From the NCBI GenBank assembly GCA_024229395.1, contig JAAESM010000050.1:376758-440757 (forward strand): 64,000 nt of DNA, read 5' to 3'. Both the position numbers and the translations under genes were made by a program. The notes below the pieces were generated by a model. That model made no database searches and was not told where the DNA came from. It worked only from the letters and a program-made list of their open reading frames with translations. How positions within the stretch are numbered: the first letter of the stretch is position 1; every line of letters starts with the position of its first letter. This document shows, in pieces, positions 31,564 through 60,887 of the stretch. The stretch comes from Planctomycetota bacterium. GTDB lineage: Bacteria > Planctomycetota > UBA1135.

Positions 31564-32544
31564 ATGATGGCCGAAGCTCCTCTCCATACTTCCATGGATG
31601 AATCCTCCTTCCAAGAACCCTTCTTCTTGGTCGGCGCGGAACGCTCAGGCACTACTTTGCTGCGTTTGATGATCGATCATCATCCGCTGATTCGTTTTCG
31701 CTTCGAATCGAACTTCCTGGTCGATTATTTGACCTCTGCTGGCGGCGATCCCGATCCCGCCGAACTGGAGAAGAAGTTGGCGATCGACCGCGGCGCACGC
31801 CTGCACGGCTTCAAGGTTGGCGAAGGCCTTGGTTATAAGGAAGGTGTACGTCAGTTCCTTTTCCACGACGCCCATCAACAAGGCAAGTCAGTCTTCGGCG
31901 CCGCCTTGCACCGACGTTTCGCCGACATCTTGCATATCTTCCCGAACGCCCGCTTCTTGAATCTCGTGCGTGATCCGCGCGACGTCGCGCCGTCGGTGAT
32001 TGCAATGGGTTGGTCCGGCAATACTTGGCATGCATCGAAGCTATGGATCAACGCCCAACAAGAGGCTCAAAGATTATGCGACAGCTTGCCGTCGGATCGT
32101 TGGCATACGCTGCGTTTCGAGGATCTGGTCTGTAAGCCTGAAGAGACTCTGACTGCGGTCAGTGAGTTCCTCGGCTGCAAGTTTGACCCGGCAATGTTGA
32201 GCTATCCAGAAGACACTACCTATCCTGCGCCGGATGCCTCGGCGTCGCAACGCTGGCGCAAGAAAATGCCAACCAAAGATGTGCAACTCGTGGAAGCCTG
32301 CGTTGGTGAATGGCTGCAAAAGGCCGGATACGAGCCCTCTGGGGAGTCTCCGCGCCAAGTCAGTAACCTGCAGCAATCGCTGCTCAACATCCAGAACCGC
32401 TTCGGCCGCTTCCGTTTCCGCACCCGCCGTTTCGGTTTCTTCACCGTGGTTGGCTTCGCATTGAGCTCGCGCCTAGGCATGCATAAGACTGCCAACCGTT
32501 TGCAGCTGAAGATGCAAGCCCACGAAAACTCCTTACTGCGTTGA
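31564..32544 (+). CDS. Sulfotransferase
   Basis: A 326-residue PAPS-dependent sulfotransferase-fold enzyme. The 5'-phosphosulfate-binding loop is FLVGAERSGTTLLRLMI (about 21-37) and the 3'-phosphate-binding segment is LVRDPRDVAPSVIAMGW. Such enzymes sulfate carbohydrates or other acceptors. Location at the head of a rhamnose/glycosyltransferase operon suggests the acceptor is the polysaccharide or a lipid-linked precursor. Start codons at 31564, 31567 and 31594 are all possible; the first is listed. Confidence 0.88.
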   Translation: MMAEAPLHTSMDESSFQEPFFLVGAERSGTTLLRLMIDHHPLIRFRFESNFLVDYLTSAGGDPDPAELEKKLAIDRGARLHGFKVGEGLGYKEGVRQFLFHDAHQQGKSVFGAALHRRFADILHIFPNARFLNLVRDPRDVAPSVIAMGWSGNTWHASKLWINAQQEAQRLCDSLPSDRWHTLRFEDLVCKPEETLTAVSEFLGCKFDPAMLSYPEDTTYPAPDASASQRWRKKMPTKDVQLVEACVGEWLQKAGYEPSGESPRQVSNLQQSLLNIQNRFGRFRFRTRRFGFFTVVGFALSSRLGMHKTANRLQLKMQAHENSLLR

Positions 32545-42398: not shown

Positions 42399-43397
42399 TT
42401 ACTTGTACTCAATCAGTTCTACCTTGCCGCGCTTGAAGCTGCGGCGTTCGGCGAACACACCTAAGGCCTGTGGCAGCTTGCCTGCCACGCAACTGCAGGC
42501 ATAGGGCAGGCGCTCGCCTAAAGATCGCTGCGGATAACTCTGCTGCAGATGCCCGGCAACGCGGATGACCTGCAGTGGATAGATTCCAAAAGCCAGCAGC
42601 GCCAATGGGTGCGCCACGATCGCCAACAGCAGGATCGTCAGCGGCAAGATCCAACCCCACAGCAACGCACTGCGCACTTCGCCGATATGGAAGTTCGCCT
42701 CACGATGACGTCGGAGGTTGCCGGCATAAGCATGACCAGCACGTCGACTCCGTTGCCACCACTGACTGAGTTTGGTCATGGCTGCGTCATGCAGGGTCAT
42801 TTCGCCGTCGAGACGTTCAATGAACCAACCTGCAGCACGCAGGCGGAAACATAGATCTGGTTCCTCGCCGGCAATCACACGATTATTGAAGCCATCGACC
42901 GCCAGTAAAGCAGCAACGCGCATCATGGCATCACCGCCGCAGGCATCGGCCTTGCCGATTGGAGTTTCCCATTCGATATCGCACAACAGGTTGTAACGAC
43001 TGGCTTCGGGAAAACGCTCGCGGCGTCGGCCGCAGACGACCGCAAGACCTTCTTCGGTTTGCAGAGCGGCGAAGGCTTGCTCCATCCAGCCATGGACCAA
43101 CTCACAATCGCCATCGAGAAACTGCACGAACTGCATTCTCGGTTCGACGGTGAGCAAGTGACGCCAACCTTCATTGCGCGCGCGTGCGGCAGTAAACGGA
43201 ATCGCCAGATCTAACTCGACGATCTCGGCACCCAACTCGCGGGCGATCTCGAGGCTGTTGTCGGTGGAACCGGAATCGACATAGACCACGCGCCGGCCTT
43301 CACCGACCACTGAGGCCAGGCAACGCTGCAGTCGTTCCCCTTCATTTCGACCGATGGCAACGACGCCAATCGGGGCAGTGCTTAGCTCTGCTTCCAC
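42399..43397 (-). CDS. Glycosyltransferase family 2
   Basis: A 332-residue GT-A enzyme with GVVAIGRNEGERLQRCL, YVDSGSTDNSLEIA, QFLDGDCEL (DxD-like) and a GGDAMMRV acceptor region. A C-terminal hydrophobic pair of helices (WGWILPLTILLLAIVAHPLALLAF region) anchors it to the membrane. It overlaps the upstream sulfotransferase gene by 16 bases and ends the leftward unit that begins with the flippase gene at 48211. The sugar is unknown. Confidence 0.88.
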   Translation of the reverse strand: MEAELSTAPIGVVAIGRNEGERLQRCLASVVGEGRRVVYVDSGSTDNSLEIARELGAEIVELDLAIPFTAARARNEGWRHLLTVEPRMQFVQFLDGDCELVHGWMEQAFAALQTEEGLAVVCGRRRERFPEASRYNLLCDIEWETPIGKADACGGDAMMRVAALLAVDGFNNRVIAGEEPDLCFRLRAAGWFIERLDGEMTLHDAAMTKLSQWWQRSRRAGHAYAGNLRRHREANFHIGEVRSALLWGWILPLTILLLAIVAHPLALLAFGIYPLQVIRVAGHLQQSYPQRSLGERLPYACSCVAGKLPQALGVFAERRSFKRGKVELIEYK

Positions 43398-44266
43398 CGA
43401 GGCTCGGTCTCCGCAGTAACTTGTTTCCAGTTCGCACAGGTCAGCTCAAGCCCGAACCACTCCCCTAGCTGGGCCAGATCGCGATCGAATTCACCTTCGA
43501 CCATGGCGCGTGATTCGGCGCTCAGCTCTGGGCGCTCGGTCATCATCCATGGACTCTTCATGCGATTGCGCACCGATTCCGGCAGGAAGGTACGGCGCAA
43601 CCATTGCAGCCAGCGAATCGAGAACAGGCGTTCGCGTTGCGCCGATTTGCGCATGCGCAGACTACTGACGTTCTGCTCAGCCTTTTCGGCAATCCATTGC
43701 GGCTTACCTTCATAACCGAGGAATTCGCAGACGCGTTCCAAAGTGCGTTGCGGATGCTTGCGCACTGAGTCGGTGAAGATCGGCAGCACCGATTCCTTAC
43801 CAAAGGCGCTAATCCATGGCTGCAACTGCTTGGCATAGCAACCATAATCGATCATCTCATGATGCTTGAGTACGGCGCTATCGATATCAGCCGAATAGAC
43901 ACCCTGCGTCCACTCATGGATGTAATGCGAGACCAAGCGTTCGACCGGTTGGCGCATCACATAGATCACCTTCAATGGCGCACTACCGATCTCTTCCTGC
44001 AGGCGCGCGATGGTCTGCGGGTAAGTAGGCGACTTGGTGTAGTGCGTACTCGATTCACCACGTAAATCGCCTGGCTGCGCCTCTGCGAACAAGCCGCGAT
44101 ACCAATCCCTGCCGCGGGCATACTCCTCGTCATCACTGAAGAAGTTCGGCTCCTTAGGGTCGCTCATGTGAAAGCCTGGCTGGCTTTCCAATTGCACGTG
44201 CAAGGTGCTGGTCGCACATTTCATTGCACCGATGATGATGAAGTCCGGGCGTGGTGTGGAAGTCAT
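43382..44266 (-). CDS. Sulfotransferase (heparan-sulfate-type domain)
   Basis: A 294-residue sulfotransferase. The phosphosulfate loop is IIIGAMKCATSTLHVQL, followed by KEPNFFSDDEEY, typical of the carbohydrate (heparan N-/O-sulfotransferase-like) branch, and YVMRQPVERLVSHYIHEW for the 3'-phosphate. The ATG at 44266 overlaps the preceding glycosyltransferase stop by four bases. Its place inside a glycosyltransferase operon strongly suggests sulfation of the polysaccharide. It is the third sulfotransferase-fold gene in the window and differs from the other two. Confidence 0.9.
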   Translation of the reverse strand: MTSTPRPDFIIIGAMKCATSTLHVQLESQPGFHMSDPKEPNFFSDDEEYARGRDWYRGLFAEAQPGDLRGESSTHYTKSPTYPQTIARLQEEIGSAPLKVIYVMRQPVERLVSHYIHEWTQGVYSADIDSAVLKHHEMIDYGCYAKQLQPWISAFGKESVLPIFTDSVRKHPQRTLERVCEFLGYEGKPQWIAEKAEQNVSSLRMRKSAQRERLFSIRWLQWLRRTFLPESVRNRMKSPWMMTERPELSAESRAMVEGEFDRDLAQLGEWFGLELTCANWKQVTAETEPRWKQS

Positions 44267-45252
44267 ACGCGCGGAGGAAAATCGCCGCGCCAACCCTCTT
44301 TGGGGTCGACCGGCTTCTTGAAGTTATGCCAGATGTCGCGACCTTCGTGTTCACAAAGGTGCGGGCGTTTGTGGCGCACGAGTTCACGGCACCAGGAAAT
44401 GGAGCGGCCAAGCATCCACATCAGGTTAGCCGACAGCAAACCGCCATGTCCATAGGACTTGGCAAGGATGCGACTACGCGATGCCCAGTAGTACTTTGGC
44501 AAGCGTTTGCGGGCGGCTTGGCTTTCCTTGACCGGACCACTTCCACCACGCAGGTGAACCACATGGGCATCCGGCCAATACAACGAGTCGAACCCTGCCA
44601 GACGCGCGCGTCGGCAGAAGTCGATGTCTTCGAAGTACAGGAAGTAACCTTCGTCCATTAAGCCAATCTTTTCGAAAACCTCGCGGCGAATCACGATCGC
44701 AGCGAAAGAAGCCCAGGCAAACGGGACTGGGTAGTCCACCAACGGTGGTGAGACAGCCCAACGGCGCAGTATCTTCGAGAGCGGGCCAGTCGCCGCGGCG
44801 TGATCCAATTCACTCCACGGGCTATGGTCGCGAAAGACACTGTGCTGTGGTTTTCCATCGGGCCATTCAAGGCGCGGACTGAATAGGCAAACCTCAGGAT
44901 GTTTGGCGACCGCCTCACGCAAGCCTTCCATGGCCCCTGGGCGCACCAAAGTATCGCTATTCAACAGGAAATAAGTCTCCGCGTCGATCGCTAGAATCCC
45001 GACGTTATTACCGGCCGAAAAACCGTGATTGCCGCCGGCCTCAACCAGCCTGGCCCAGCTCCCCCAGCCATTGCCGCTGAGAGCCTCTGCGATGCGCTCT
45101 ACGGAGTCATCGCCGGATTGATTGTCCACGATGACTACACGCTCTTGAGGCGCCACCTGGTCCGCCAGCGTGTGCAGACAATCGATCACCATGCCCGGCG
45201 TGCGGTAGTTCAGAATCACAATCGCCAAAGGGCAACGCTCGTCTTGGCTCAT
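44263..45252 (-). CDS. Glycosyltransferase family 2 (rhamnosyltransferase-like)
   Basis: A 329-residue GT-A enzyme beginning MSQDERCPLAIVILNYRTPG; an upstream ATG at 45264 is four codons earlier. It has FLLNSDTLVRPG (DxD-like) and the FEKIGLMDEGYFLYFEDIDFCRRA acceptor region (split across positions about 220-243), the same layout as the protein at 38855. It probably transfers rhamnose or a related deoxysugar. Four-base overlap couples it to the sulfotransferase gene downstream. Confidence 0.9.
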   Translation of the reverse strand: MSQDERCPLAIVILNYRTPGMVIDCLHTLADQVAPQERVVIVDNQSGDDSVERIAEALSGNGWGSWARLVEAGGNHGFSAGNNVGILAIDAETYFLLNSDTLVRPGAMEGLREAVAKHPEVCLFSPRLEWPDGKPQHSVFRDHSPWSELDHAAATGPLSKILRRWAVSPPLVDYPVPFAWASFAAIVIRREVFEKIGLMDEGYFLYFEDIDFCRRARLAGFDSLYWPDAHVVHLRGGSGPVKESQAARKRLPKYYWASRSRILAKSYGHGGLLSANLMWMLGRSISWCRELVRHKRPHLCEHEGRDIWHNFKKPVDPKEGWRGDFPPRV

Positions 45253-45327
45253 GGGGTTCTGCAAACTCTGGGGTGAAATGAATTCAGCGGTCGCATTTTA
45301 GGGCAAGTCAACATCGGCTTCTAGGAC

Positions 45328-46752
45328 CTAGATTGGCGGCGCTGTGCCGAAGACTCGCCCGTAACGGCGCACTGCAGGCAGTTGCGGACCGATGAAGCCA
45401 GCACTGGGACCTCCTGGACTCTTTTGGATCGGTGCCAATAACGCCGACGACACCGCGCCGAGGATCATCATGAACATGGGGTTCATCTGTGCATTGGTGA
45501 CCATGTCGACGCCGACCGCAGCAATCACCATCGCAAAGCAACCGGTAATCATGGTCTCTGGTTCCTTAATCCAACGCTTGGGTGGAGCATGACGCATGAC
45601 AATCAGGAATGGAGTCAGGTACATCAGGATCATCGACCCGAGACCGACCAAACCGTAGGCACTGAAGGAGATAATCCACAGACCATCGGCGACCACTGAT
45701 ACTTCGCGGCCACGTTCGTTCTCAACCACGTTAAAGGCACGGTTACTCCAGCCGAAGATCGGCTTCTCCTTGGCATACCCGATCAGCCGATCTTCTGCAT
45801 TTAAGCGGAAGGCCAAGGAACGGCCGCGCTCCGCATCGATCATCGAGGTGGCTTCGGACAGCGTATTGGTCTCGAGCATGCCAGTGGTTCGCGTGGTGGC
45901 CCAAGTGACTGGGATCAAGGCGAACAACAACAGCAAGGTCTTGCCTTGGGTGCGGCGTGAGAACATGGTCAGCATCCAGATCGCCAAGGCAAGGAAGGTG
46001 GCGCCCATCGATTGGCAAGCAAGGAATACGATCGCCACGCACAACACCCAGAACTTGGTGGGCAAGCCGAATAGTTTGGTGCTTAGTTTGGTGCTAGCCA
46101 GGGCCCAGCCGACGAAGGTCGTCATGCCCATCCACATACCAACAGTCAACCCGTGAGACAGGAATACCGTCGGGCGGAATAGGCTGCCACGAACGGTCTG
46201 GGCGAAGGAATGCTGATGGAAGCCATACAGCGTGCTGTGCAGCATGGGGCTGAGGCGGATCTCCAACGCACAAAGCGGCATATAGATCAGTCCGCCCAGG
46301 AACAGGATCTTGGCCAGGTCGACCAGTTGTTCCTTGCTGCGGAAGTGCAAGCGGCCAATGAAATACGGGCCACCCCAACCGATGGACTGATAGAAACCAA
46401 GCGACGAGCCTTCGTAAAGACCAAGGTCATTAAGCACCGCGGCGAAGAACGGTGCCAAACACCATCCCAGGACCGGTAGATCAAACCAGCGCAGGCGGAA
46501 TCTGCGTAACAAGGCGCCATCGCGCATCAGCATGCCGGCAAAGACCACGAACACCGGCGCGGTGTTGCGGTTCCAATAGAGGGCACCGCCGATGTCGATC
46601 TGCGCCGTTGGCAGGAACAGGAAGCCCATCATTAGGCTTGCGGCCACGGCCTTGTGACGCGGCAACTTGGCGTCGAAAATCAGCGCGATGATCGGAAACA
46701 ACGCCATGACCAAATAGGCCATGAGGTTTGGATCCTGATAGTAGGTGCCCAT
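45328..46752 (-). CDS. O-antigen ligase/polymerase (Wzy-like) membrane protein
   Basis: A 474-residue protein with about 12 hydrophobic helices. Near the second half it has RLIGYAKEKPIFGWSNRAF, the signature loop of O-antigen ligase/polymerase family proteins. It would polymerise flipped repeat units in the periplasm (Wzy role) or ligate them. The start at 46752 (MGTYYQDPNLMAYLVMALF) is used; a frame from 46803 overlaps the upstream flippase gene. It directly follows the flippase gene (1-base gap), the standard Wzx-Wzy pairing. Confidence 0.82.
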   Translation of the reverse strand: MGTYYQDPNLMAYLVMALFPIIALIFDAKLPRHKAVAASLMMGFLFLPTAQIDIGGALYWNRNTAPVFVVFAGMLMRDGALLRRFRLRWFDLPVLGWCLAPFFAAVLNDLGLYEGSSLGFYQSIGWGGPYFIGRLHFRSKEQLVDLAKILFLGGLIYMPLCALEIRLSPMLHSTLYGFHQHSFAQTVRGSLFRPTVFLSHGLTVGMWMGMTTFVGWALASTKLSTKLFGLPTKFWVLCVAIVFLACQSMGATFLALAIWMLTMFSRRTQGKTLLLLFALIPVTWATTRTTGMLETNTLSEATSMIDAERGRSLAFRLNAEDRLIGYAKEKPIFGWSNRAFNVVENERGREVSVVADGLWIISFSAYGLVGLGSMILMYLTPFLIVMRHAPPKRWIKEPETMITGCFAMVIAAVGVDMVTNAQMNPMFMMILGAVSSALLAPIQKSPGGPSAGFIGPQLPAVRRYGRVFGTAPPI

Positions 46753-46753
46753 C

Positions 46754-48211
46754 CTATTTCTTGAAGATGAGTGCGCGCGCCGGTTGTAGCGCCACCGCAG
46801 CAAGAGCGAGCCCGGCGACCGCCACCAGGATCGTGCCTGGAATCTGCGCCAGCGTGAAGGAATATTCCGAGATGAAATAACCTGCTCCGCCGAAGACTAA
46901 CAGGGCCAAACTTGCGACCACATCTTGCTTCAACAGCGGCGTGCCGTGAGAGATCAAGCGCAGGTGCAGGCTCAACAAGCCGGCCATATTGCCGAGTGCC
47001 ATGCCGAGGATGAAGCCAGGCAGCCCCAACCACTTGAAGCCAAACCAACAGGCCGGCATCTTGACCAACAGAATCACCAAGTTGGCGGTGGAGACGGAAC
47101 GTGAATCGCCATGGACCAACAAGGCCTTGGAGCACGATGCAATCAGGCTGGAGAACCAGAACGGGATACACAACAGCTGCGCGATCAATGCTGCACCAAT
47201 GTATTCATCTCGATAGAGAATCGTGAAGTAGGTCGGCGCGACGGTAACCACACCAATCAGGCCAGCGATACATAGAGACAACAAGCCGAGGCGCGACCGT
47301 TGCACGCGGTCCGTGTGGCCTTTATCGCCACGTCGGAAGGATTCCATCCAAACTGGGAACACCACCGAACCGGAGATGGCCAGCAGGATCGCGGGCACCA
47401 GACCGGCAATGCGATAGGCAATGCCGAAATCGCCGGTGTCTCCCGTTTCCATCAACTTGGTGATGAGGATGCGCTCGACCTGCATGGCGAAGAACAGATA
47501 AGCCGTGCTGAGGAAAATCCAGCGCCCAAAGCTGAACAACTCCTTGACCGATTTCTTCTCCCATTGGAAGCGCATCGATACGCCGGGCAGCATGATGTGG
47601 CTGAACAAGGTCTGCGCGATCGAGTGCGAGACACCACCAGCGACCAAGGCCATTGGGGTTGGCGAGATCAGCGCCCAGATGATCATGGTGGCGACGGAAA
47701 TGACCAGGCTCAAGGCCTGGATCAAGGTCTTGCGGCCTTGGGCAATCTGGCGATCGAGCGTGAACCAACTCGGTGAGCGGAAGCCGAGGATCAATGCCGA
47801 GGAACCAGCCACCACCAGCAGGTATTCGATCATCTCCTGCTCGGCCATACCGCCTTCGGTCAGGACTTCGCCGACCATCAGCGCATAAGGTTTGGCCAAA
47901 GCCCAACACACCCCATACAGCAAGATGCCACGGATGACCTGGATGGTCCAGACGGTGCGCAGGAATGGAGTTTCCTCGCCGCGCTTGGAGTGCACGATCG
48001 ATGGACCGATGCCGATATCCGAGAACAATTGGATTCCAGTCAGGAAGACATGGACCGGCACCAACACGCCAAAGGCTTCGCGGAACAGCAGCCATGTCAT
48101 GATGATGCTGCTGACCAAGCGAAGGCCGGTCTCGAAGCCCTTTCCTAGGAGCACCCACATGCCACCGCGCTTACCGCGGCCAGCGAGACTTTCTTTTGCG
48201 GGTTCCGTCAT
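46754..48211 (-). CDS. Polysaccharide flippase (Wzx/MOP family)
   Basis: A 485-residue protein with about 14 membrane helices. The N-terminal part, GKRGGMWVLLGKGFETGLRL, and the internal SFGRWIFLSTAYLFFAMQVERILI resemble lipopolysaccharide/exopolysaccharide O-unit flippases (RfbX/WzxC-like). It heads a leftward operon flippase, polymerase, glycosyltransferase, sulfotransferase, glycosyltransferase, and so is the likely flippase of the sulfated repeat unit. The other flippase, at 22419-23948, is only distantly similar. Confidence 0.88.
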   Translation of the reverse strand: MTEPAKESLAGRGKRGGMWVLLGKGFETGLRLVSSIIMTWLLFREAFGVLVPVHVFLTGIQLFSDIGIGPSIVHSKRGEETPFLRTVWTIQVIRGILLYGVCWALAKPYALMVGEVLTEGGMAEQEMIEYLLVVAGSSALILGFRSPSWFTLDRQIAQGRKTLIQALSLVISVATMIIWALISPTPMALVAGGVSHSIAQTLFSHIMLPGVSMRFQWEKKSVKELFSFGRWIFLSTAYLFFAMQVERILITKLMETGDTGDFGIAYRIAGLVPAILLAISGSVVFPVWMESFRRGDKGHTDRVQRSRLGLLSLCIAGLIGVVTVAPTYFTILYRDEYIGAALIAQLLCIPFWFSSLIASCSKALLVHGDSRSVSTANLVILLVKMPACWFGFKWLGLPGFILGMALGNMAGLLSLHLRLISHGTPLLKQDVVASLALLVFGGAGYFISEYSFTLAQIPGTILVAVAGLALAAVALQPARALIFKK

Positions 48212-48278
48212 TGAAGAAGGTAGGAATTCCTGCCCGCAAATGTAGCAGCCGGAACAGTCGAGGCGAAACTCAAAGTGA

Positions 48279-48305
48279 TTGTACCCCCAGAATTGGTGAT
48301 ATACT
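48279..48305 (+). promoter_or_regulatory. Weak promoter candidate before the WecG-like gene
   Basis: TATACT (48300-48305) is a good -10; TTGTAC (48279-48284) is a fair -35 but the spacing is only 15 bases. If real, it sits about 100 bases ahead of the ATG at 48407 and would exclude the GTG at 48275 as a start. Confidence 0.3.
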
Positions 48306-48406
48306 TCGGCGGAAATTTGGTTTCCAAGCGCTTCGAAAGACTCGGATACGCCTCAACCTTGACTGCCCCCACCTCTTCGCCCAATACGCCCCCCCAACTC
48401 ACCCTC

Positions 48407-49156
48407 ATGGGGTTGGATGTCCATGCAGTCACCAATGTCGAGTGTGTCGACTTCGTGGCCTCGGAATGGGCGGCAGGACGTGGTGGTTGGTTACACACGG
48501 TGAACTTGGATCATCTGCGGATGATCACGGCGGGAAAGTTTTTTGATGGACCTTTGCCTTATGCGGAAATGCGCGTTTGTGACGGTGCGCCGTTGATCTG
48601 GGCAAGCCGCCTGCAAAAAACGCCCTTGCCAGAACGTGTCGCCGGCTCCGACTTGATCCGTAGCCTGACCAAAGCCGCGGCCGAAAACGAGCGCAGTGTC
48701 TATTTCCTCGGCGGAAACCCCGGTTCTGCTGAAGGTGCGGCGGCTCAACTGCAGCAAGAGTTTCCAGGTTTCAAGGTGGCGGGCATTCTGTGCCCCGATT
48801 TCGGATTCGAGAAGGATCCCGAACAGCTCCAGAAGATCACTGATTCCCTAGTCGAATCGCAACCTGACTTGGTATTTGTGGCGGTCGGTGCGCCCAAAAG
48901 TGAGCGCTTGATTCAAGATTGGAAAAAGCTGGTCCCAAAGGCATGGTGGGCCGGTGTGGGCATCAGCTTCAGTTTCGTGACCGGCGAGGTCAAACGTGCA
49001 CCACGTTGGATGCAAGTGACCGGCACCGAATGGATTCACCGCATGCTGCAGGAGCCTGGGCGCCTATTGAAGCGCTATCTGGTGCATGGCATCCCATTCG
49101 CCATCAAAATGTTCTGGCACAGCTTCAAGCAGCGCTCCAAGAAAAAAGGCGAGTAG
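48407..49156 (+). CDS. WecG/TagA/CpsF family glycosyltransferase
   Basis: A GT26-type enzyme of 249 residues from ATG 48407. It begins MGLDVHAVTNVECVDF and has WLHTVNLDHLRMI, LIWASRLQKTPLPERVAGSD (about 70-89), VYFLGGNPGSAEGAA, FVAVGAPKSERLIQDW and GVGISFSFVTGEVKRAPRWM, the conserved order of UDP-ManNAc(A) transferases. It adds the second sugar to a lipid-linked primer. Family length supports this start; the frame extends to a GTG at 48275. It is convergent with the Wzc-like gene and shares its terminator. Confidence 0.87.
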   Translation: MGLDVHAVTNVECVDFVASEWAAGRGGWLHTVNLDHLRMITAGKFFDGPLPYAEMRVCDGAPLIWASRLQKTPLPERVAGSDLIRSLTKAAAENERSVYFLGGNPGSAEGAAAQLQQEFPGFKVAGILCPDFGFEKDPEQLQKITDSLVESQPDLVFVAVGAPKSERLIQDWKKLVPKAWWAGVGISFSFVTGEVKRAPRWMQVTGTEWIHRMLQEPGRLLKRYLVHGIPFAIKMFWHSFKQRSKKKGE

Positions 49157-49159
49157 TCT

Positions 49160-49194
49160 GCGCCAGCCGCCTAGGTTGGCGGCAGCGCTTTTTT
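49160..49194 (+). terminator. Rho-independent terminator
   Basis: GCGC-CA-GCCGCC, a six-base loop, then GGCGGC-A-GCGC form a strong interrupted stem followed directly by six T. It ends the WecG-like gene four bases after its stop and overlaps the 3' end of the convergent Wzc-like gene. Confidence 0.78.
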
Positions 49195-51243
49195 GCGACT
49201 CTTCAGCAGCTCGCGGTAGTAACCACGGCCGTGGAAGATCTTGGCGTTGTGCAATAAGGTTCCAACTGCCGATGGATGCAGCGAGGCAAGCACGTCGCCG
49301 GCGCGTTGAACCTCACCGCGCGTTTGCGCTTGCGCTTCGACCATCAGCACCACCAAGTCCACCGAAGAAGCCATGTGCTCGGCGTCGGCAGAACCCAACA
49401 GTGGGTCGGCACGAATCAAAACCAAGTCATAAGCAGCAGCGGCTTCACGCAGGATTTGGTCCCAACCGGCGAAGACATGCGCCTGGTCGTTGAGTGGATT
49501 ACCGTACTCGCAGAAATCCCAGCCATCACGAGCCACGACTTCTAGGCCACGACCAGCCATCAAGGCAAGGAAACCACCAGTGGTCTGTGCCCCCATCGCT
49601 TTGGCATTGCGCGGCGCGGCGGCATCAACCACCAACACCTTGCGGCCAAAGGCTGCGAGTGCACTTGCGATATCGTTGACCACGTTCTGCGATCCTTTGC
49701 CTGCCTTCACTTCAGTGAATTGAATCAGGCGCGAGGAAGCATAGGACTGGTCTCGATCCAAGGCTAATGCGAAGCGACGAATCTGATCCTTAGCCAGATG
49801 CATCTGCGCACCACGCTTCGGTTCCGGAATCCAGATCGCTGGCGGGAAGCCAAACACCGCTTCCACATCTTGGGTGGTGTGCACGCGGTTATCGCGCATG
49901 TCGATCAGCAAGGGCAGACCGATCGCAAGGATTAAAGTCAAGATGGCGACCAGCGCCAAGTTGCGGATCAGCTTACTCTCACCCTGTTCGGGAGATGTTG
50001 GCGCTTGCGCGATGCTCACGAAACTTGGAGATTGATTCTCCAACTCGAAGTAGTTGAGGCGCTCGGTGATCTGACCATGGCGCTCCAGGTCTTCGGTCAA
50101 GGTGGCTTCCAGCACCATGCCCTCCTGGAAGGAACTGACGAAATCCTTGGCGGTCTTGCCAAGCGTTTCCACTTCAGTGGTCAGTTGTTCGATGCGCTTT
50201 TCAGTACGGCGCAACTCCATCTCATCGGCCACGCGACTCGCTTCAGCGTGACGCACCAACAGATCCCTGATCTGCTGCTCGAGCGACTTCACTTCCTGCT
50301 CCAAACCAGCACGCGCCACGTGACCAGGGTTCATGGCCAACATGCGGTTCATGATATCGGAACGGCGTTCGACTAGCGGGCCGACGACCTGGGCAAGCCC
50401 TTCATTAATCGATTCCGCACCGCCGAGCAAGACCATTTCAAGCATGGCATCGTTGGCATCGAGCGGATCCTCAAGCTCCAACTCCATCTTCATGGTGGTA
50501 GCGGAACGTTCGGCCTCGACTAGGGCAAGGCGAGCGTTCTCCAACGGCGTGACCCATGGGTTGGAACGCGTTTCAGAGAAATCCAAGACGTTGAGATTTT
50601 CGGCGGCGGCCTTCAACAATCCACGCTTCTTCGCGATGGTCTCATCCAACTCCGCGATCAAGCCACGCAACACATCCGGGCGCTCATCCTTTTCGAAGGA
50701 GAACTCCAAGCGGTGGGCGTCAAGGAATGCCGCTAATAGCCCATCCAGGGCATCTTGCAGCACATAAGGGTTGTAACCCGTGACGTCGACTGCGATCCGA
50801 TAGGTGTTGCGCAGTAGGTATACATCTAGAGCGCGCGAGAATCCCGCGACCGCTGCTGCGGACCCCAAGACTTCCGGTGCCCAAACGCCGTTGTCGAGCT
50901 GACCGGCGCGGCGCAAACCATCTTCCAGAACATCGGGGCGCATCATCAGGCCCACTTGCTCATTGCGGAAGATGTCGTACTCGGTGGTGTTGCGCAACTC
51001 GACCTCGCGGTCAGTTTCCAACATGCGTTGGAAGTTGCGCTCAACACGGACTTCGGAGAAGGAAGAGTAGGTCACTTCCTCGCGGTCCACCATGTAGTAG
51101 CCACCAGCTCCCCCCGTAACGATGATCAGGAAAATCGAAAGTATGATGTGCTTTCGAAAACTCTGGAAAAAGTTCAGAGGTTTCGGCTCTGGCTTAGCCC
51201 CCGGGGTGATGGCGGCTAAGCTGTGCGTTTCAGAGATGTTCAA
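49171..51243 (-). CDS. Wzc-like polysaccharide co-polymerase with degenerate kinase domain
   Basis: A 690-residue inner-membrane chain-length regulator. The first helix is at about 32-52, followed by a large periplasmic domain with coiled-coil stretches (about 190-400), a second helix near 430-450 and a cytoplasmic BY-kinase/ParA-like domain. The ATP site is degenerate: Walker A reads KAGKGSQN (513-520), with Ser518 where the catalytic Lys should be; Walker A' is VVDAAAPRN; Walker B is VLIRADPLL with Arg for Asp. There is no Tyr cluster, only one YY near the end. It probably regulates chain length without autokinase activity. It is co-translated with the upstream Wza-like gene (4-base overlap). 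Confidence 0.85.
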   Translation of the reverse strand: MNISETHSLAAITPGAKPEPKPLNFFQSFRKHIILSIFLIIVTGGAGGYYMVDREEVTYSSFSEVRVERNFQRMLETDREVELRNTTEYDIFRNEQVGLMMRPDVLEDGLRRAGQLDNGVWAPEVLGSAAAVAGFSRALDVYLLRNTYRIAVDVTGYNPYVLQDALDGLLAAFLDAHRLEFSFEKDERPDVLRGLIAELDETIAKKRGLLKAAAENLNVLDFSETRSNPWVTPLENARLALVEAERSATTMKMELELEDPLDANDAMLEMVLLGGAESINEGLAQVVGPLVERRSDIMNRMLAMNPGHVARAGLEQEVKSLEQQIRDLLVRHAEASRVADEMELRRTEKRIEQLTTEVETLGKTAKDFVSSFQEGMVLEATLTEDLERHGQITERLNYFELENQSPSFVSIAQAPTSPEQGESKLIRNLALVAILTLILAIGLPLLIDMRDNRVHTTQDVEAVFGFPPAIWIPEPKRGAQMHLAKDQIRRFALALDRDQSYASSRLIQFTEVKAGKGSQNVVNDIASALAAFGRKVLVVDAAAPRNAKAMGAQTTGGFLALMAGRGLEVVARDGWDFCEYGNPLNDQAHVFAGWDQILREAAAAYDLVLIRADPLLGSADAEHMASSVDLVVLMVEAQAQTRGEVQRAGDVLASLHPSAVGTLLHNAKIFHGRGYYRELLKSRKKALPPT

Positions 51244-52262
51244 TTGCTAGTCGTGACGTCGTAGACGATTCCGAGCTGAGCGATAGGCTGCAGTTGACGG
51301 AAGACCCAACCAATCTCGGCGAGGGTGTGACGTGGAGCAAAGACGATGTCGCCCTTGGCCAAGCCGCGGTTCTGAAGGAAATCACCTTCCGAGAACTCCT
51401 CATAATCGAAGGTGTCTTGCGTGCCTTCGGTCGGACGCAGCAAACGAATGCCGTCGTCGTCACAGTCTTCGGTGATGCCGCCAGCCAGGGCGAGTGCATC
51501 GACCGCAGTCATGCCATGACGCAGTGGGTACATGCCAGGACGCTCCACTTCACCCAATACGTAGATTAGGCGTTGGGTATCGGCAGTGACGTGGATGACG
51601 TCGCCAGGGACGAGTTCCACGTTGAGACTCATGTCGCCATCGTGCAGCAGTTGATCGAGATCGATCCACAGCAGCGATTCCTTGCCACGCATGATCGCGC
51701 AACGTTCCGGGGTGAGACCGTTGGCATCCTTGCGCAAACCATCCGCGGTACCGATTGCGCGCAACAAGGTTGGCACGCCATCGAACTTGTACTCGCCAGG
51801 CGAACCGACACTTCCCAGCACCACGATCGAATAAGCGTTGTAGCTATCGATGCCAAGGGTGACAGAAAGATCCGAGTAGGCATTGGCGAATGCTGCATCG
51901 ACTGCAGCATGGGCATCGGTGCGTAACTTGCCGCCTAGGTGCACATCACCGACGACTGGAAGCGAGATGTAACCATCTGGACCGACACGGTGCGAACCGG
52001 ACAAGTCATCACGACCGAAGACGGTGACTGTGACGTCGTCGCCAGGAGAGATGCGATATCCACTTGCGTTCGCTTTCTCACCAGCGGCACGGAACTCGGC
52101 CAGGATCTCGGTGGCTTCGGAACTGTAATCAGCCGAAGGCCCGCCAACATCAGAGATCGGTGGCAGCGACGAGAAATCAGGCTCAGGAGCGGCGCAAGAT
52201 GTCGCAAAAACCGGCATAGCCAGCGCAGCAACAAGGCAAAACTTTTGCAATTGGGTATTCAT
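51240..52262 (-). CDS. Polysaccharide export lipoprotein (Wza/OPX family)
   Basis: A 340-residue outer-membrane export protein. The lipoprotein signal is MNTQLQKFCLVAALAMPVFATSC (residues 1-23, Cys23). A Poly_export domain (YRISPGDDVTVTVFGRDDL) and two SLBB repeats (YSIVVLGSVGSPGEYKF and RLIYVLGEVERPGMYPL) follow. With the Wzc-like protein encoded next it forms the envelope-spanning exporter. The ATG overlap with wzc is ATGA. It is longer than the OPX protein at 18603-19376 and is likely the main channel subunit. Confidence 0.92.
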   Translation of the reverse strand: MNTQLQKFCLVAALAMPVFATSCAAPEPDFSSLPPISDVGGPSADYSSEATEILAEFRAAGEKANASGYRISPGDDVTVTVFGRDDLSGSHRVGPDGYISLPVVGDVHLGGKLRTDAHAAVDAAFANAYSDLSVTLGIDSYNAYSIVVLGSVGSPGEYKFDGVPTLLRAIGTADGLRKDANGLTPERCAIMRGKESLLWIDLDQLLHDGDMSLNVELVPGDVIHVTADTQRLIYVLGEVERPGMYPLRHGMTAVDALALAGGITEDCDDDGIRLLRPTEGTQDTFDYEEFSEGDFLQNRGLAKGDIVFAPRHTLAEIGWVFRQLQPIAQLGIVYDVTTSN

Positions 52263-53690: not shown

Positions 53691-53795
53691 TTGCAGGCTT
53701 CGTTTCGCCTGGAAATCTCTGAAAATCAAGCTTAAGTCGAAGTCGCTTTTATCCGTTGTTGGACTATGAGCGCCCTCGTGTATCTACCTAATTCC

Positions 53796-55955
53796 ATGTC
53801 GCAGTCCAGTTTAGGCCTTGTCAAAGGCTTCCTCACAACACTTGCTCTTGCCACACTCGCCAGTTGCGGCGGCGGTGGCGGTGATGTGGTCAGCTCAGGT
53901 GGCGGCGGCGGTAGTACCTCGCTGAACTTTTCGTCGCCGTGGGCAGGCATCAATCTGGCAGCACCAAACCAACTGCCAGCACCATCGGCGGGCCAAGGCT
54001 CCGGAGGCATTGCTGCGGGCGCAAACTATGCTTCGGAAGTTGGCGCGGAAAACCTGGCTGCTGTCCCTCAGGGTGGACGCTTCAACCCCAACTACGCCAG
54101 CGACACACCGAAGAAGTCGGCGCGCTTGGCATGGGGTACTTATTGGTTGGATATGTCGGACAAGCGCGAGGCCACGGCGATCGTCTTGAATTGGCTGGAC
54201 CAACCGCTACCGAGTAATGTATGGATTGGATTAGCGAACTGGGATAAGAACCGTTGGGCTTGGCGCAAGATTTCGTCCTTGAACAAGGTCACACCTCCGA
54301 ACTCGTTGGATCCTTACATTCGCGATTCCGACAACATGCTTGCTTGCACAATCCTCGTCATTGGTGCGGACCCAGCGGTGCTCGACACCGTGGCCACCAA
54401 CCAGAGCGGCGACACCCCGCCCCCAGAGGCCGACGGACTGCTGAACGAAAATGCGCACTTGGGCATCAACCTCGGCACCGTGGATGACTGGAACCCCACC
54501 ACCGTGTTTACCGACGTCTTCAAGACCTCGAAGACCTGGATTCCACAGGATGTCGTCGGCGGTCCATGGGATAACGGCCACGCCATCAACGTAGACAGCA
54601 ATGGCTGGGTCACTTCTTTGGATCCTGGCCAAGCGGTGATTGCAGTGATGATGACCAACATGGTCGGCGTTTATCCAGAAGGCAACTACACATGCCTTTA
54701 CGACGGCGACGGCACCATCGAGTTCACCCTCAATGCCAGTGTGGTATCGGCGGAACCTGGTCGCTTGATCGTCCATGTGGAGAGTGACGGCACCATTGGT
54801 CTGCGCATCACATCCACCAACCCTGCGGATTATGTGCGCAACATCAGGCTGATTATTCCTGGTTATGAAAACACTTATGAGACCCAGGTTTTCCATCCTG
54901 ATTTCCTCGCCAGCATCGATGAATTCAACGTGCTGCGCTTTATGGATTGGGGTTGGACCAACACCGCTCAAGTCGAGGACTGGAGCGATCGCACCAAGCT
55001 GACCAGTTCCACCCAGACACGCAGCGAAAGCGCAGGTGTCTGCCTCGAACACATGATCGACTTGTGCAACACGCAACTGGCTGACGCATGGATCTGCATC
55101 CCCTACAAAGCGACGGATGATTATGTGCAGAAGGCCGCGGCACTGATTCAGGCCCGCCTTGACCCACACCTGCGCGTTCATATCGAATACAGCAATGAGG
55201 TGTGGAACGGCGTGTTCCAAGTCGCCAACTACGCCCGCGATAAGGGCCTTTCCGCTGGGCTATCCACCAACGCTTTCCAAGCACAGATGCGCTGGTACTC
55301 GCAACGTAGTCAAGAGATTCACACCATCTTCGCTGATGCCTTCGTGGATGAGCCGGAACGCCTGCTGCGCATTGTTGCCGGCCAGAGCACCAACCCTTGG
55401 GTAGGCACCACCGTGATGGATTGGGATGGCACTGCAGGCGAAGTTGATGACACCAATGTTGCCGACCGCTTCGATCACTACGCAGCCGCGCCTTACTTCG
55501 GTAACTCCTTGGGTCTGGAGCCACAAGCAAGCATTACCGCAACTTGGACAATGGAACAGCTGCTCACTGCTTGTGAGGCGGAGAGTCTGGCCGCGACCGG
55601 CCCAGGCAGTTCCACCGAGTCGAATGCCAACAACGCCACAACACGTGGGATCACACTGATTTCCTACGAAGGTGGTCAACACCTTGCGGGTGTCGGCCCG
55701 GCCGTCAACAACGACGACCTGACCACACTGTTCACCGCTGCAAACCGCAACGAAGGCATGCGCCAGCTTTACTTGGACCACATGCGCCGCTGGTCGGCAG
55801 CCGGTGGTGGCCTGTTCGTGGCTTACAACCACGTCGGTATCTACTCCAAGTTCGGTAGTTGGGGCTTGCTCGAGAACCAGAACCAAGATCCAGAAACAGC
55901 ACCAAAGCTGCAAGGCTTGCTGGACTGGGTCGGCGAGTTGACAGCTGCGGAATAG
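53796..55955 (+). CDS. Large lipoprotein with glycoside-hydrolase-like (GH-A clan) features
   Basis: A 719-residue lipoprotein from ATG 53796: MSQSSLGLVKGFLTTLALAT then LASC, lipidated Cys24, followed by two Gly-rich linkers. The middle part is beta-rich (about 70-380). The C-terminal half carries IEYSNEVWNG (Asn467-Glu468, a GH-A-like acid/base pair) and ISYEGGQHLAG (Glu625, a possible nucleophile). I recall the YSNEVWN motif from planctomycete proteins labelled cellulose-binding or hydrolase-like. It may trim or release the exopolysaccharide at the cell surface. No exact GH family can be named. A longer frame from 53766 is possible but less like a signal peptide. Confidence 0.72.
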   Translation: MSQSSLGLVKGFLTTLALATLASCGGGGGDVVSSGGGGGSTSLNFSSPWAGINLAAPNQLPAPSAGQGSGGIAAGANYASEVGAENLAAVPQGGRFNPNYASDTPKKSARLAWGTYWLDMSDKREATAIVLNWLDQPLPSNVWIGLANWDKNRWAWRKISSLNKVTPPNSLDPYIRDSDNMLACTILVIGADPAVLDTVATNQSGDTPPPEADGLLNENAHLGINLGTVDDWNPTTVFTDVFKTSKTWIPQDVVGGPWDNGHAINVDSNGWVTSLDPGQAVIAVMMTNMVGVYPEGNYTCLYDGDGTIEFTLNASVVSAEPGRLIVHVESDGTIGLRITSTNPADYVRNIRLIIPGYENTYETQVFHPDFLASIDEFNVLRFMDWGWTNTAQVEDWSDRTKLTSSTQTRSESAGVCLEHMIDLCNTQLADAWICIPYKATDDYVQKAAALIQARLDPHLRVHIEYSNEVWNGVFQVANYARDKGLSAGLSTNAFQAQMRWYSQRSQEIHTIFADAFVDEPERLLRIVAGQSTNPWVGTTVMDWDGTAGEVDDTNVADRFDHYAAAPYFGNSLGLEPQASITATWTMEQLLTACEAESLAATGPGSSTESNANNATTRGITLISYEGGQHLAGVGPAVNNDDLTTLFTAANRNEGMRQLYLDHMRRWSAAGGGLFVAYNHVGIYSKFGSWGLLENQNQDPETAPKLQGLLDWVGELTAAE

Positions 55956-56150: not shown

Positions 56151-59100
56151 CTACTGACCGCGGCGCGCCCGACGTAGTGCCGCACGTTTCGCCGCCGCAC
56201 TTTGTGGCGCCCCGCCTGAAGGTCCACCGTTGGTCGCAGCAGCAGGCTTCTTGCCTTCTTGCTCGGCCGCCAAGAAGGTCGCCAAGCTACGCACCGTCGA
56301 GTGACTGAATAGCGCGATCAAAGCAACCTCTATGCCATGTTCTGCCATCAAGATGCGCTTCAAGCTGATGGTCAGCAAGGAGTGGCCGCCTAGGTCAAAG
56401 AAGTTGGCGTTGCGATCGAGACTGTTAAGACCAAGGATGTCGATCCAGATCTTCTCCAGCGCGTCTTCCAACTCTGCTGCCGACATCTCCACAGCCTCAA
56501 CAGCCGCGGCTTGGGGCTGAGCCTTCGGTGCTGGCGGAATCGGCGCTGCGGCCACTCCACCACCTCCTTGAGCCAAGGCCTTGCGATCGGTCTTGCCGTT
56601 ATTCGTCTTCGGGAAGCGCTCGTGCACATGGAATTCACGTGGAATCATGTACTCCGGCAGGCAAGTACGCAGGAAGGAACGAAGTTCCTCAATCTCCAAC
56701 TTACTGTTGGCCTCCAACACGAAGTGTGCCGCTAAGACGCGCGCCCCCAGTGGATTCGTGACCACTAGAACTGCGGCTTGCGAGACCTCTTCATGGCTGA
56801 GCATGGCGGCTTCGATCTCACCGAGTTCGATGCGATAACCATTGACCTTCACTTGTGAGTCGCCGCGGCCCATGAAACGCATGGTGCCATCGGGCAACTG
56901 ACGCACTTGGTCGCCAGACTTGTACAGCAGGCCTTCGCCACTGGCGTCGAAAGGATCCTGCAAGAATGCCGACGACGTCAGATCGGGCTTACCGAGGTAA
57001 CCGCGTGCGACACACAATCCCGCAATGAAAAGCTCACCAGGAAGTCCCGGTGGCACCAACTGCAGGTTGGCATCCAAGGCATAGAAGCGATTGTTGGCCA
57101 ACGGTTCACCAAGACTGACCACAGTGGTGTCGTGTTCGATGTCGGCGGTCGAGGACCAGATCGCGGTTTCGGTCAGGCCATACATATTCATGACGCGACC
57201 GGGCACGATGGCGCGCAGTTTCGAAGCGAGATCTTCGGTGAGGGCTTCCCCACCGACCATCATCACGTCGAGCGTGCCGAGGGCCTCGGTGATAGCGGAT
57301 TCCGCCAGCAACATGGTGGCCATCGACGGCGTGCATTGCAGATGCGTCGCCTTGTGGGTGAGGATCAGGTCCTCTAGGTTTTCGCGCGCTTCTAGGCCCT
57401 GTTGACCACCTTGCACACGTTCCTTGAACTGCTGAAGATACGGCAGTTGTTTCAGGATCAACTCGGGCTCAGCGCCAAAGTCCACCAGACAGGCGATTTC
57501 ATCGACTTCCAGGTCGCGCATCTTGTCGACCATGCCCAAGCAGGATTCGGGGGTGCCGAATAGCGCGTCACTCTCGAAGTAACGCTTGTAGGCGAAGTCG
57601 AGCAGGTCTTGCACGTCTTCCCCAGCGAGATCCGACAAGTTGAAATCGGTGTCGTACTTACCCTTGTTCATCGGCGTACGCACTGCCGCCCACGCCGACA
57701 TGTGGTCCTTCAGCAAGTCAGCGGCCGTTGCCAGATAGGAACAGAATGGACCGCGCGCGAGTTCGCGCAGCTCTTCACGATCTTCACCAAGCATGGTGTG
57801 CAACATCATCGTCACATGGCCGGAACCGGGGTGACCGGCTTCGCGCCAAGCGTCGCGGTAGACCTGAATCTTCGAAGCGATCTCGTCGGTGGTCTGCCCT
57901 AACAAGTGGGTGAGGATATGCACGCCCATCTCGCCAGCAAGGCGGAAGGTCTCGGGGTTGCCTGCGGCCGTCAGCCAAACCGGTAGTTCCGGTTGCACCG
58001 GGCGTGGGCGGGTGATGATCTCGGGTGTTTCGCCGACACCATTCCTCAGTTCCAAGGCTTCGCCGCGCCATGCACTTCGTAAAGTGCCGATGCGGGTCTT
58101 CATGATCTGCTTGCGGTCTTCATAAGAATCCGGCTCAAGCACGAAATCGTTGGGGTGCCACCCAGAGGCAATGCCCAGACCCACGCGCCCACCGGATAGG
58201 TTGTCGACCATTGCCCAGTCTTCGGCCATCAGGACCGGGTCGTGGAATGGCAACACCACACTGCCCGTGCGCAGGTGAATATCGTTGGTCACGGCGGCGA
58301 TTGCGGCGGCAGAAACGGCCGGGTTGGGGTAGATTCCGCCGAAATCATGGAAGTGTCGTTCCGGCAGCCAAATAGCCCGGAAACCATGCGAATCGCCAAA
58401 ACGAGCCGTTTCCAGCATCAAGTCATAGGGATTCGGAGCACCAGCTCCACCACCAGAAGCGCCCCACAGCATCAAGCTGAACTCAACCTGGCCTGCATCG
58501 TGAGGTGCAGGGGCATGCGCGGCTCGTAGGCCACGGTCGAAGCCTTCGAAGATCACCAACTTGTAACCGCGACTCAAGGTCCAAAGCAGTTCCAACACAG
58601 AGATGTCAAAGGACAGACTGGTCACGGCCACCCATACACCAGGCTCCACACCAAGGCGTTCGTCCATGCCCAAGAAGAAGTTGGTCACTTGCTCGTGCTC
58701 CAACATCACGCCCTTGGGATTGCCGGTCGATCCAGAGGTGTAGATCACATAAGCCAGGTTCGAAGGGGTTGGCACCTTCGGTGGTGCCGGTTCGAATGCC
58801 GGCAAAGGTTGATCCATCAGGATTAAGGTCTCGACCGAGTCATCCACCAAAGAGGACGACCACGCATCGCTCAAGACGATGCTCACGCCAGAGTCCTCCA
58901 CCATGTAACGCAAACGCGATGGTGGAAAGTCAGGATCCAACGGCAAGTAAGCCGCACCAGACTTCAGGATGCCAAGCAAAGCCACCATCATGTCGGTGGT
59001 GCGTTGCATGCAGATACCAACCATAGAGTCGGGGCCGGCACCGAGGCTGGCCAAGTACGAGGCTAGATGATCGGCACGTTGTTCTAATTCTTCATAGGTG

Positions 59101-60887
59101 AGTTCTTCACCTGCGGCTACGACGGCGACTGCATTGCCCATGCTGACGGCCTTTTCGCGGATCAGCTCATGGACCAACTGCCCTTGTGGCAAGTCGCGCG
59201 TGCTGTCATTCCAACCTTCCAGAATCTGCCGACGCTGATCCTCCGGCAGCAGCTGCAGATGCATCACAGGCGTGTTTGGAGCTGCGCAAATGGCTTCCAG
59301 CAGGGTTTCAAGCTGCTGCGCCATGGCTTCGGCATCGGCGCTGGAATAGCGATTCTCCGCATATTCCAGCCACAATTGACCCTCTGCGGTTGCACGGTAG
59401 ACCAACACGGAATCCTCAGCTTGAGGATCGGAGGCGCCAATCACGATGGCGATCTCAGGCAGACACACGCGCCCTTGGGTTTCGGCGTTCCTCGAACGCC
59501 CCTGCAAGTCATGCAGGAATGGCGGCAGCGATCTGCAAGTCGCGACTTGCTGCTCCACCATTTTCATGCTGGCGGCAAAGTCATGTTGATCTTGGAACTC
59601 CACGCCAAGGGGCACCGATGCAGAGAGCAGCTGATCCATACCAGCAACACGCTCGGTCAAATGGTCATCCACATAACGCACGCGAAGACCCTGTTGACGC
59701 GCAAGGCGTGATAAGTGAATCAAACTTACCGTACCTAAGGAAGCTGCAAAATCAGGAGCCTGACTCTGCGCCAAGAATTCCGACGGCACCGCAATCTCGC
59801 GCTTCAACAGCGCGCCATCCGCAACACTGTTCGGGCTTTGGTCGTAGGCCAAGGCCGGCGGATCAAAAGCGGCAAAGGCTTCCAGCCAGGTAGCTTCGTG
59901 CTCGCTGATCGCGGGCAAGGATTTGGTCAGCGAAGTCAACAATTTAGGGGATGGTGAGGGCAAGACCTGCCCGATCCGAATCCCCTCAAACGCCAGCCAA
60001 TCAAGGATTTCGACGGAATTACCAGTCAAATCCTGTAGGCCGGTGATGCGTAAATTGCCATCGGCGGTGGCCACTACGAGGCCTCGCTCGGAAGCAGCCA
60101 AGATCGTGCCAGCAGTAACACTCTCCTTGCTTGGTTCGGCAATCGCACCGGAGATGCCAACAGCCTGATCGCTGACCAACATCTTGGCCATGCAGAATGG
60201 GTTGTTGTAGGAACCGTAATCCAAACCATGGACCATGGCCTCCAACTCTGCGGCACTGCGCGACCACTGCATCAACCCCCAATGATCCGGGCGTTGATCG
60301 CGGCCAAACGGCAAGCGCGCCGACTCCACCTGTGGAACACGCTCAAAGCTTTCGTCCAGCAACTGCGGCAACAATTCCTCGAAGCCACTCAAGGCTGCCT
60401 CGAAACACTTCATGTTCAAGGAGACGGTGGTGTCATTGGCCTCGATCGGCACCGTCACATGCTTGAGGATGTCGCCTAGGCCAACTTCGGCCTCCGCGAT
60501 ATGCCAACAGACTCCAAAATCGAGCTCCTGGTTCATCAGGGCCCACGCCGGTCCGTTCGGGCCGGAATACCGTGGCAAGGGACTGTCTTGGATATTGATT
60601 GCCGCGATTTTGGGCAAAGTGCGTAAAAAATCCGGGACAATATTTAGCCAAGTGATGCTAAATACATAATCACAATTCCAAGATTCAATATCGCTCTTTT
60701 CGAGGTTTTTTGCGCTGCGAACTTCGATTTTGTGGGCCTCTGCCCAATCACGAATTCGAGGGCTATCAGAAAGCACCCCCGAAATCCCGAGATTCAGGCT
60801 GAGAAGGCGCTCTGCGCACTCCAGAAGAAGTGAATCGTTGCCGATGAGTACACAGTTACGCTTGTTCAGAGTTGTATTTGAATCCAT
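56151..60887 (-). CDS. NRPS: formyltransferase-like, partial C, adenylation split by luciferase-like monooxygenase, carrier
   Basis: A 1578-residue megasynthase subunit. Domains in order: formyltransferase-like (about 1-305; INIQDSPLPRYSG at 97-109, so the catalytic His is Gln100, while Asn98 and Asp139 remain); a C-domain-like remnant (about 330-570) without HHxxxDG; an adenylation domain with A3 TSGSTG (717-722), A4 FDISVLELLW (Asp761), A5 MYGLTETAIW (about 1235), A8 GRGDSQVKVNGYRIELGEIE and A10 NNGKTDRKAL (Lys1432). An FMN-dependent luciferase-like monooxygenase is inserted at about 800-1150, between A4 and A5. A carrier domain follows with FFDLGGHSLL (Ser1503), then an Ala/Arg/Lys-rich tail. 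This is the MupA/Atu3671-type architecture. It probably starts an assembly line; the product is unknown. It is divergent from the PKS gene. Confidence 0.9.
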   Translation of the reverse strand: MDSNTTLNKRNCVLIGNDSLLLECAERLLSLNLGISGVLSDSPRIRDWAEAHKIEVRSAKNLEKSDIESWNCDYVFSITWLNIVPDFLRTLPKIAAINIQDSPLPRYSGPNGPAWALMNQELDFGVCWHIAEAEVGLGDILKHVTVPIEANDTTVSLNMKCFEAALSGFEELLPQLLDESFERVPQVESARLPFGRDQRPDHWGLMQWSRSAAELEAMVHGLDYGSYNNPFCMAKMLVSDQAVGISGAIAEPSKESVTAGTILAASERGLVVATADGNLRITGLQDLTGNSVEILDWLAFEGIRIGQVLPSPSPKLLTSLTKSLPAISEHEATWLEAFAAFDPPALAYDQSPNSVADGALLKREIAVPSEFLAQSQAPDFAASLGTVSLIHLSRLARQQGLRVRYVDDHLTERVAGMDQLLSASVPLGVEFQDQHDFAASMKMVEQQVATCRSLPPFLHDLQGRSRNAETQGRVCLPEIAIVIGASDPQAEDSVLVYRATAEGQLWLEYAENRYSSADAEAMAQQLETLLEAICAAPNTPVMHLQLLPEDQRRQILEGWNDSTRDLPQGQLVHELIREKAVSMGNAVAVVAAGEELTYEELEQRADHLASYLASLGAGPDSMVGICMQRTTDMMVALLGILKSGAAYLPLDPDFPPSRLRYMVEDSGVSIVLSDAWSSSLVDDSVETLILMDQPLPAFEPAPPKVPTPSNLAYVIYTSGSTGNPKGVMLEHEQVTNFFLGMDERLGVEPGVWVAVTSLSFDISVLELLWTLSRGYKLVIFEGFDRGLRAAHAPAPHDAGQVEFSLMLWGASGGGAGAPNPYDLMLETARFGDSHGFRAIWLPERHFHDFGGIYPNPAVSAAAIAAVTNDIHLRTGSVVLPFHDPVLMAEDWAMVDNLSGGRVGLGIASGWHPNDFVLEPDSYEDRKQIMKTRIGTLRSAWRGEALELRNGVGETPEIITRPRPVQPELPVWLTAAGNPETFRLAGEMGVHILTHLLGQTTDEIASKIQVYRDAWREAGHPGSGHVTMMLHTMLGEDREELRELARGPFCSYLATAADLLKDHMSAWAAVRTPMNKGKYDTDFNLSDLAGEDVQDLLDFAYKRYFESDALFGTPESCLGMVDKMRDLEVDEIACLVDFGAEPELILKQLPYLQQFKERVQGGQQGLEARENLEDLILTHKATHLQCTPSMATMLLAESAITEALGTLDVMMVGGEALTEDLASKLRAIVPGRVMNMYGLTETAIWSSTADIEHDTTVVSLGEPLANNRFYALDANLQLVPPGLPGELFIAGLCVARGYLGKPDLTSSAFLQDPFDASGEGLLYKSGDQVRQLPDGTMRFMGRGDSQVKVNGYRIELGEIEAAMLSHEEVSQAAVLVVTNPLGARVLAAHFVLEANSKLEIEELRSFLRTCLPEYMIPREFHVHERFPKTNNGKTDRKALAQGGGGVAAAPIPPAPKAQPQAAAVEAVEMSAAELEDALEKIWIDILGLNSLDRNANFFDLGGHSLLTISLKRILMAEHGIEVALIALFSHSTVRSLATFLAAEQEGKKPAAATNGGPSGGAPQSAAAKRAALRRARRGQ

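Follow-up and report, generated by a model that had tools for sequence, protein, structure and literature searches.

The Wzc-like co-polymerase (PCP-2) of a marine planctomycete probably belongs to a Wzx/Wzy pathway and carries a kinase domain that has become a pseudokinase, persisting as a phosphorylation-independent structural scaffold; we put the probability of this reading at about three in four. Its gene lies in the 64,000-nucleotide stretch of DNA analysed here (the window), and the genome assembly of the host measures 3.1 Mb and is 87% complete. Wzc is the standard textbook example of the control of polymer export by bacterial tyrosine phosphorylation, and its cycling is needed for capsule in E. 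coli; hence a permanently unphosphorylated PCP-2 would need some other control. No report on PCP kinases of Planctomycetota was found in the open literature searched. BY pseudokinases of the pathway are already published, and fused forms are mentioned for other phyla (PMC12004946). What is new is an exosortase-linked clade of fused pseudokinases in Planctomycetota, in which the decay of the motifs is graded. The gene, its upstream neighbor and the motifs concerned are the following:

49171..51243, minus strand: PCP-2 (Wzc-like) co-polymerase with a fused putative pseudokinase domain, 690 aa, TTG start
51240..52262, minus strand: OPX outer-membrane export protein (Wza-like), Pfam Poly_export and SLBB, directly upstream of PCP-2 and overlapping it
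49684..49707, minus strand: degenerate Walker A, residues 513-520 (KAGKGSQN), with Ser518 at the Lys position and Gln519 at the Ser/Thr position by alignment
49606..49638, minus strand: degenerate Walker A', residues 536-546 (VLVVDAAAPRN; VVDAAAPRN from 538), Asp540 kept and the second Asp replaced by Ala542
49402..49428, minus strand: degenerate Walker B, residues 606-614 (DLVLIRADP, within VLIRADPLL), Arg611 at the Asp position
49174..49236, minus strand: C-terminal tail, residues 670-690 (FHGRGYYRELLKSRKKALPPT), which lacks a tyrosine cluster and has in its place a GY[YFL]-type motif and a short helix of low confidence

The PCP and pseudokinase parts form one ORF without stops, whose TTG start overlaps the OPX stop by 4 nt; the same start and overlap are found in the orthologue L002. 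The protein has the Wzc-like arrangement of two membrane helices around a large periplasmic domain, followed by a cytoplasmic BY-kinase fold. The spans are predicted at about residues 33-53 and 425-450 from the helices of an AlphaFold2 model, which has a mean pLDDT of 83, a pTM of only 0.49 and a tail of low confidence. Full-length Wzc gave the best PDB matches of this model in Foldseek (E 1e-24); for the kinase part the target TM was about 0.72 against 3la6 and 0.78 against 4jlv. The initial annotation had judged fold and membrane topology to be normal, with which these results agree. The window protein thus shares the PCP-2 architecture of E. coli Wzc and S. aureus CapAB, its predicted fold matching 7nhr, 9r64, 3la6 and 4jlv, but of their catalytic residues it retains only the first A' Asp, and it lacks the tyrosine cluster used in phosphorylation cycling. 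Pfam AAA_31 matches only part of the domain, below the cut-off. Proteins of the clade described below match tyrosine-kinase family models, and automatic annotation may therefore call them kinases.

KAGKGSQN aligns without gaps on KPGAGKST of CapA1B1 (4jlv) in phmmer, which pairs Ser518 with the Lys and Gln519 with the Ser. A shifted alignment that would rescue the P-loop was rejected, since the phmmer alignment is ungapped and Lys516, which is not conserved, would put the glycines out of register. The substitutions initially proposed, namely Ser518 for Lys in Walker A, VVDAAAPRN in place of DxDxR in Walker A' and Arg for Asp in VLIRADPLL, were all recovered, the last as Arg611. The tyrosine cluster, also said to be missing, is indeed absent: Tyr675 and Tyr676 are the only tyrosines of the tail, and in the window family no 15 tail residues hold more than two. 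The features of an active BY-kinase missing from the protein are therefore the Walker A Lys and Ser/Thr, the A' DxD, the Walker B Asp and the C-terminal cluster.

Four orthologues were found in related planctomycete MAGs, two in congeners (58% and 51% identity to the window protein) and two in other genera of the family (36% and 38%, the latter split over two contigs). All four are degenerate at the same three sites, with differing letters: T, V, T and D stand at the Lys position and Lys or Val at the Walker B Asp position, while the first A' Asp540 is kept throughout the window family. The initial proposal of a pseudokinase is supported by this comparison of close homologues, in that the P-loop Lys is missing from all five family members, as are the second A' Asp and the Walker B Asp. 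The deviations exceed chance or sequencing error, because independent orthologues are degenerate at the same sites; for this reason, and because the ORF is intact, sequencing error or a pseudogene was rejected as the cause of motif loss.

Conservation along the protein is uneven. Identity between congeners is 73-78% over residues 619-667, which lie in the C-terminal half of the domain, and 67-75% over the membrane-proximal segment, compared with 50-64% for the P-loop region and 54-56% for the periplasmic part. A structural role fits this pattern, since the membrane-proximal segment and the C-terminal half are better conserved than the P-loop region. The pattern also bears on the idea that the kinase domain is a non-functional relic under relaxed constraint, with the function residing in the transmembrane and periplasmic part alone, as in kinase-less co-polymerases. 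The loss of all catalytic sites and a freely drifting P-loop would agree with it, but the domain is full length and in open frame in all orthologues, residues 619-667 are more conserved than the periplasmic part, and its having been retained for so long throughout the clade speaks for a function; we regard a relic as very improbable.

The window family is nested in a larger group. A tree was calculated from 102 rows of homologues from GTDB contigs, the phylum and the family, with the motif and tail columns left out, and it separated 55 PCP-2 rows, including that of the window, from 47 canonical rows with an SH-aLRT of 100; the same split had a value of 99.9 in a 48-row check. Lys and DxD are present in 47/47 canonical rows. 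In the non-canonical group, 54 of 55 rows lack the second A' Asp (Asn in 49) and 48 lack the P-loop Lys, whereas 50 keep both the P-loop Ser/Thr and the Walker B Asp, the five rows that lost them being exactly the window family. The A' counts are motif-based, since alignment gaps invalidate column parsimony counts. Seven rows (e.g. L075, L155 and L163) have Asn at A' with Lys still present. L189, L190, L191 and L075, with an intact P-loop Lys and Asn for the second Walker A' Asp, can be viewed as natural intermediates. The nesting suggests that the second A' Asp was lost first, then the P-loop Lys and, in the window family only, Walker B. For the loss of Lys the tree needs three changes, and a single clade is compatible with an AU test (p 0.078, 48-row check). 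A G-Y-[LFYM] tail motif occurs in 50/55 non-canonical as against 4/47 canonical rows, dense tyrosine clusters are reduced in the former, and a short helix (pLDDT about 60) likewise closes the model of L089, another protein of the clade. The records of the non-canonical rows from GTDB contigs are nearly all named as Planctomycetota or its subgroups, with three given as 'uncultured bacterium', in a sampling biased toward this phylum, from which the later rows were drawn.

These counts also bear on whether the domain binds nucleotide in an unorthodox manner and acts as a nucleotide-sensing switch without phosphotransfer. In the 50 clade rows that keep the P-loop Ser/Thr and Walker B Asp, binding without catalysis is plausible, and even the window family retains Asp540. 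In that family, however, Lys and Ser/Thr are gone together with the second A' Asp and the Walker B Asp, and the variation of P-loop letters among orthologues speaks against a maintained pocket, which makes a switch of this kind unlikely for the window protein.

All five family members share Tyr675 and Tyr676, which could be modified by another kinase. That a separate active BY-kinase phosphorylates PCP-2 in trans is favored by this invariance, by the canonical Wzc-like kinase that G007 carries in addition to the degenerate protein, and by the incompleteness of the host assembly, from which an unlinked active kinase could be absent, the genome being 87% complete. Against it stands that the tail tyrosines number only two, and that a TIGR01007 search found no other BY-kinase in the assemblies of the host (G000), G002, G004 and G006. 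The stronger of the other matches in these four were Mrp or TadZ-like proteins on reading, and the weaker ones have ParA-like lengths, the criterion by which they were judged. Nor was a second kinase-like gene found beside 24 clade loci, so phosphorylation in trans is improbable. A separate kinase within the window cluster was likewise rejected, none being found there. The congener G001 has a canonical kinase. Two low-molecular-weight phosphatase genes lie elsewhere in the host genome; they were set aside as uninformative, as such genes also occur in relatives with canonical kinases.

Unphosphorylated E. coli Wzc is an octamer and the multiply phosphorylated form a monomer, and cycling between them has been proposed to drive export; a stable octamer is likewise formed by the K540M variant, in which the P-loop Lys is replaced (PMC8285477). 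If the window protein is a phosphorylation-independent scaffold, its pseudokinase domain could neither bind Mg-ATP productively nor autophosphorylate, and would form and stabilize a ring in the cytoplasm, beneath the periplasmic co-polymerase and its Wza partner. Such a ring would remain permanently unphosphorylated, and assembly and disassembly, if they still occur, would be set by partner binding or polymer load and not by phosphotyrosine cycles. The ring may be regarded as a built-in version of the support by direct contact that EcpK of Myxococcus xanthus and HfsB of Caulobacter crescentus give to their PCPs; both are essential stand-alone BY pseudokinases that contact the PCP directly (PMC12004946). 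They have the BY-kinase fold without Walker motifs or a tyrosine tail and are conserved among orthologues, as is also seen for the window protein. They differ in being separate proteins that act with a PCP lacking the domain, while the window pseudokinase is fused to its PCP, and several structural elements of the BY-kinase fold are described there as missing from EcpK (PMC12004946). Cuthbertson et al., cited in PMC12004946, list fused PCP-2/pseudokinases, for example S. meliloti SMc01795 and V. vulnificus VV1_2305. By that description, with which the window protein is compared, they likewise combine both parts in a single polypeptide, but they come from other phyla and exosortase linkage is not mentioned for them in the passage that cites them.

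Linkage to an exosortase sets the clade apart. Among the 24 non-canonical loci that have wide flanks, 22 encode an exosortase within 9 kb, the other two ending at contig ends, as against none of 22 canonical loci (Fisher p 3.5e-11, shared ancestry ignored). The usual order in the clade is OPX, exosortase, DUF3485/EpsI, a TPR protein of about 1500 aa and then PCP; this operon recurs, for example, at L089:340-11311 and L103:290-10588 and in about 20 other loci. The first gene was identified as OPX by NCBIfam in the two wider-clade loci tested, phmmer with the window Wza having failed to detect the more distant OPX proteins in the wider clade. In the Planctomycetota set, an exosortase was found in 0/11 canonical loci, in 3/3 Asn loci that keep Lys and in 2/3 further pseudokinase loci, the remaining one being truncated. 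Among the intermediate loci L195-L197, one of three has it by scan, and a second (G150) has it about 14 kb away by Pfam search. In the host genome, the corresponding genes lie about 17 kb from PCP, just past the right end of the window:

L177:5315-8167 (G000:C50:445314-448166): exosortase, DUF3485-like gene and initiating sugar transferase (sugar-phosphate transferase)

The DUF3485-like gene of the host scores below its cut-off. The same three kinds of gene lie directly beside PCP in G006. Exosortase, exopolysaccharide export genes and a chain-length protein are also found together in the XrtA/PEP-CTERM loci (Haft 2006, PMC1569441), for which NCBIfam has a tyrosine autokinase (TIGR03018) and a chain-length protein (TIGR03007). 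The clade differs from these loci in that the XrtA kinase is an autokinase by its NCBIfam name, whereas the clade has a fused pseudokinase, and in that the exosortases tested, two from the clade and that of the host, score under the cut-offs of all named exosortase types.

The exosortase/EpsI/TPR module is, by genomic association only, a candidate for a replacement switch. It may be suggested, tentatively and with considerable doubt, that exosortase loci of Planctomycetota use a distinct phosphorylation-independent class of PCP-2, that the locus itself supplies the control through the exosortase, EpsI or the TPR protein, and that the order of decay can be read from A' Asp-to-Asn with Lys present to the motif-less window family. 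The natural intermediates (A' Asn with Lys; Lys lost and Walker B kept; all lost) allow one to ask at which step ATP binding was lost. The clade also allows one to ask what replaced phosphorylation cycling, and the exosortase link points to candidate controls.

PCP-2 is encoded together with OPX (Wza), Wzx and Wzy, the last a weak match, as seen from Pfam in the window and from synteny kept in relatives. The other features of the cluster are:

46754..48211, minus strand: Wzx-type flippase, Pfam Polysacc_synt_3, conserved synteny
45328..46803, minus strand: candidate Wzy-type polymerase, weak Wzy_C match (E 1.5e-4, below cut-off), conserved synteny
48275..49156, plus strand: WecG/TagA-family glycosyltransferase, Pfam PF03808 (E 4.6e-56)
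42399..45264, minus strand: GT2, sulfotransferase and GT2, conserved synteny in L130-L132 and L134
33288..36692, plus strand: dTDP-rhamnose genes rmlD, rmlB, rmlA and rmlC, by Pfam

The gene order is kept in the congeners G002 and G004 and largely in G007; OPX adjoins PCP in L130, L131, L133 and L135, and this adjacency also holds in G006. Deacetylase and acyltransferase genes lie left of the cluster, near rmlDBAC. The locus is of the Wzx/Wzy type, for a polysaccharide that is probably sulfated. Two sulfotransferase genes are located inside the cluster (window 31564-32544 and 43382-44293), and the pair suggests a sulfated extracellular polysaccharide. Two further genes were observed in the window. 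A 729-aa protein (53766-55955) has no Pfam or NCBIfam match and is 42-58% identical in three relatives, where it is encoded near the same genes. A 1578-aa protein (56151-60887) combines formyltransferase, adenylation, MupA/Atu3671-type luciferase-like monooxygenase and carrier domains; it adjoins the polysaccharide cluster in G002 and G004, and a relative of it lies on the OPX/PCP contig in G007.
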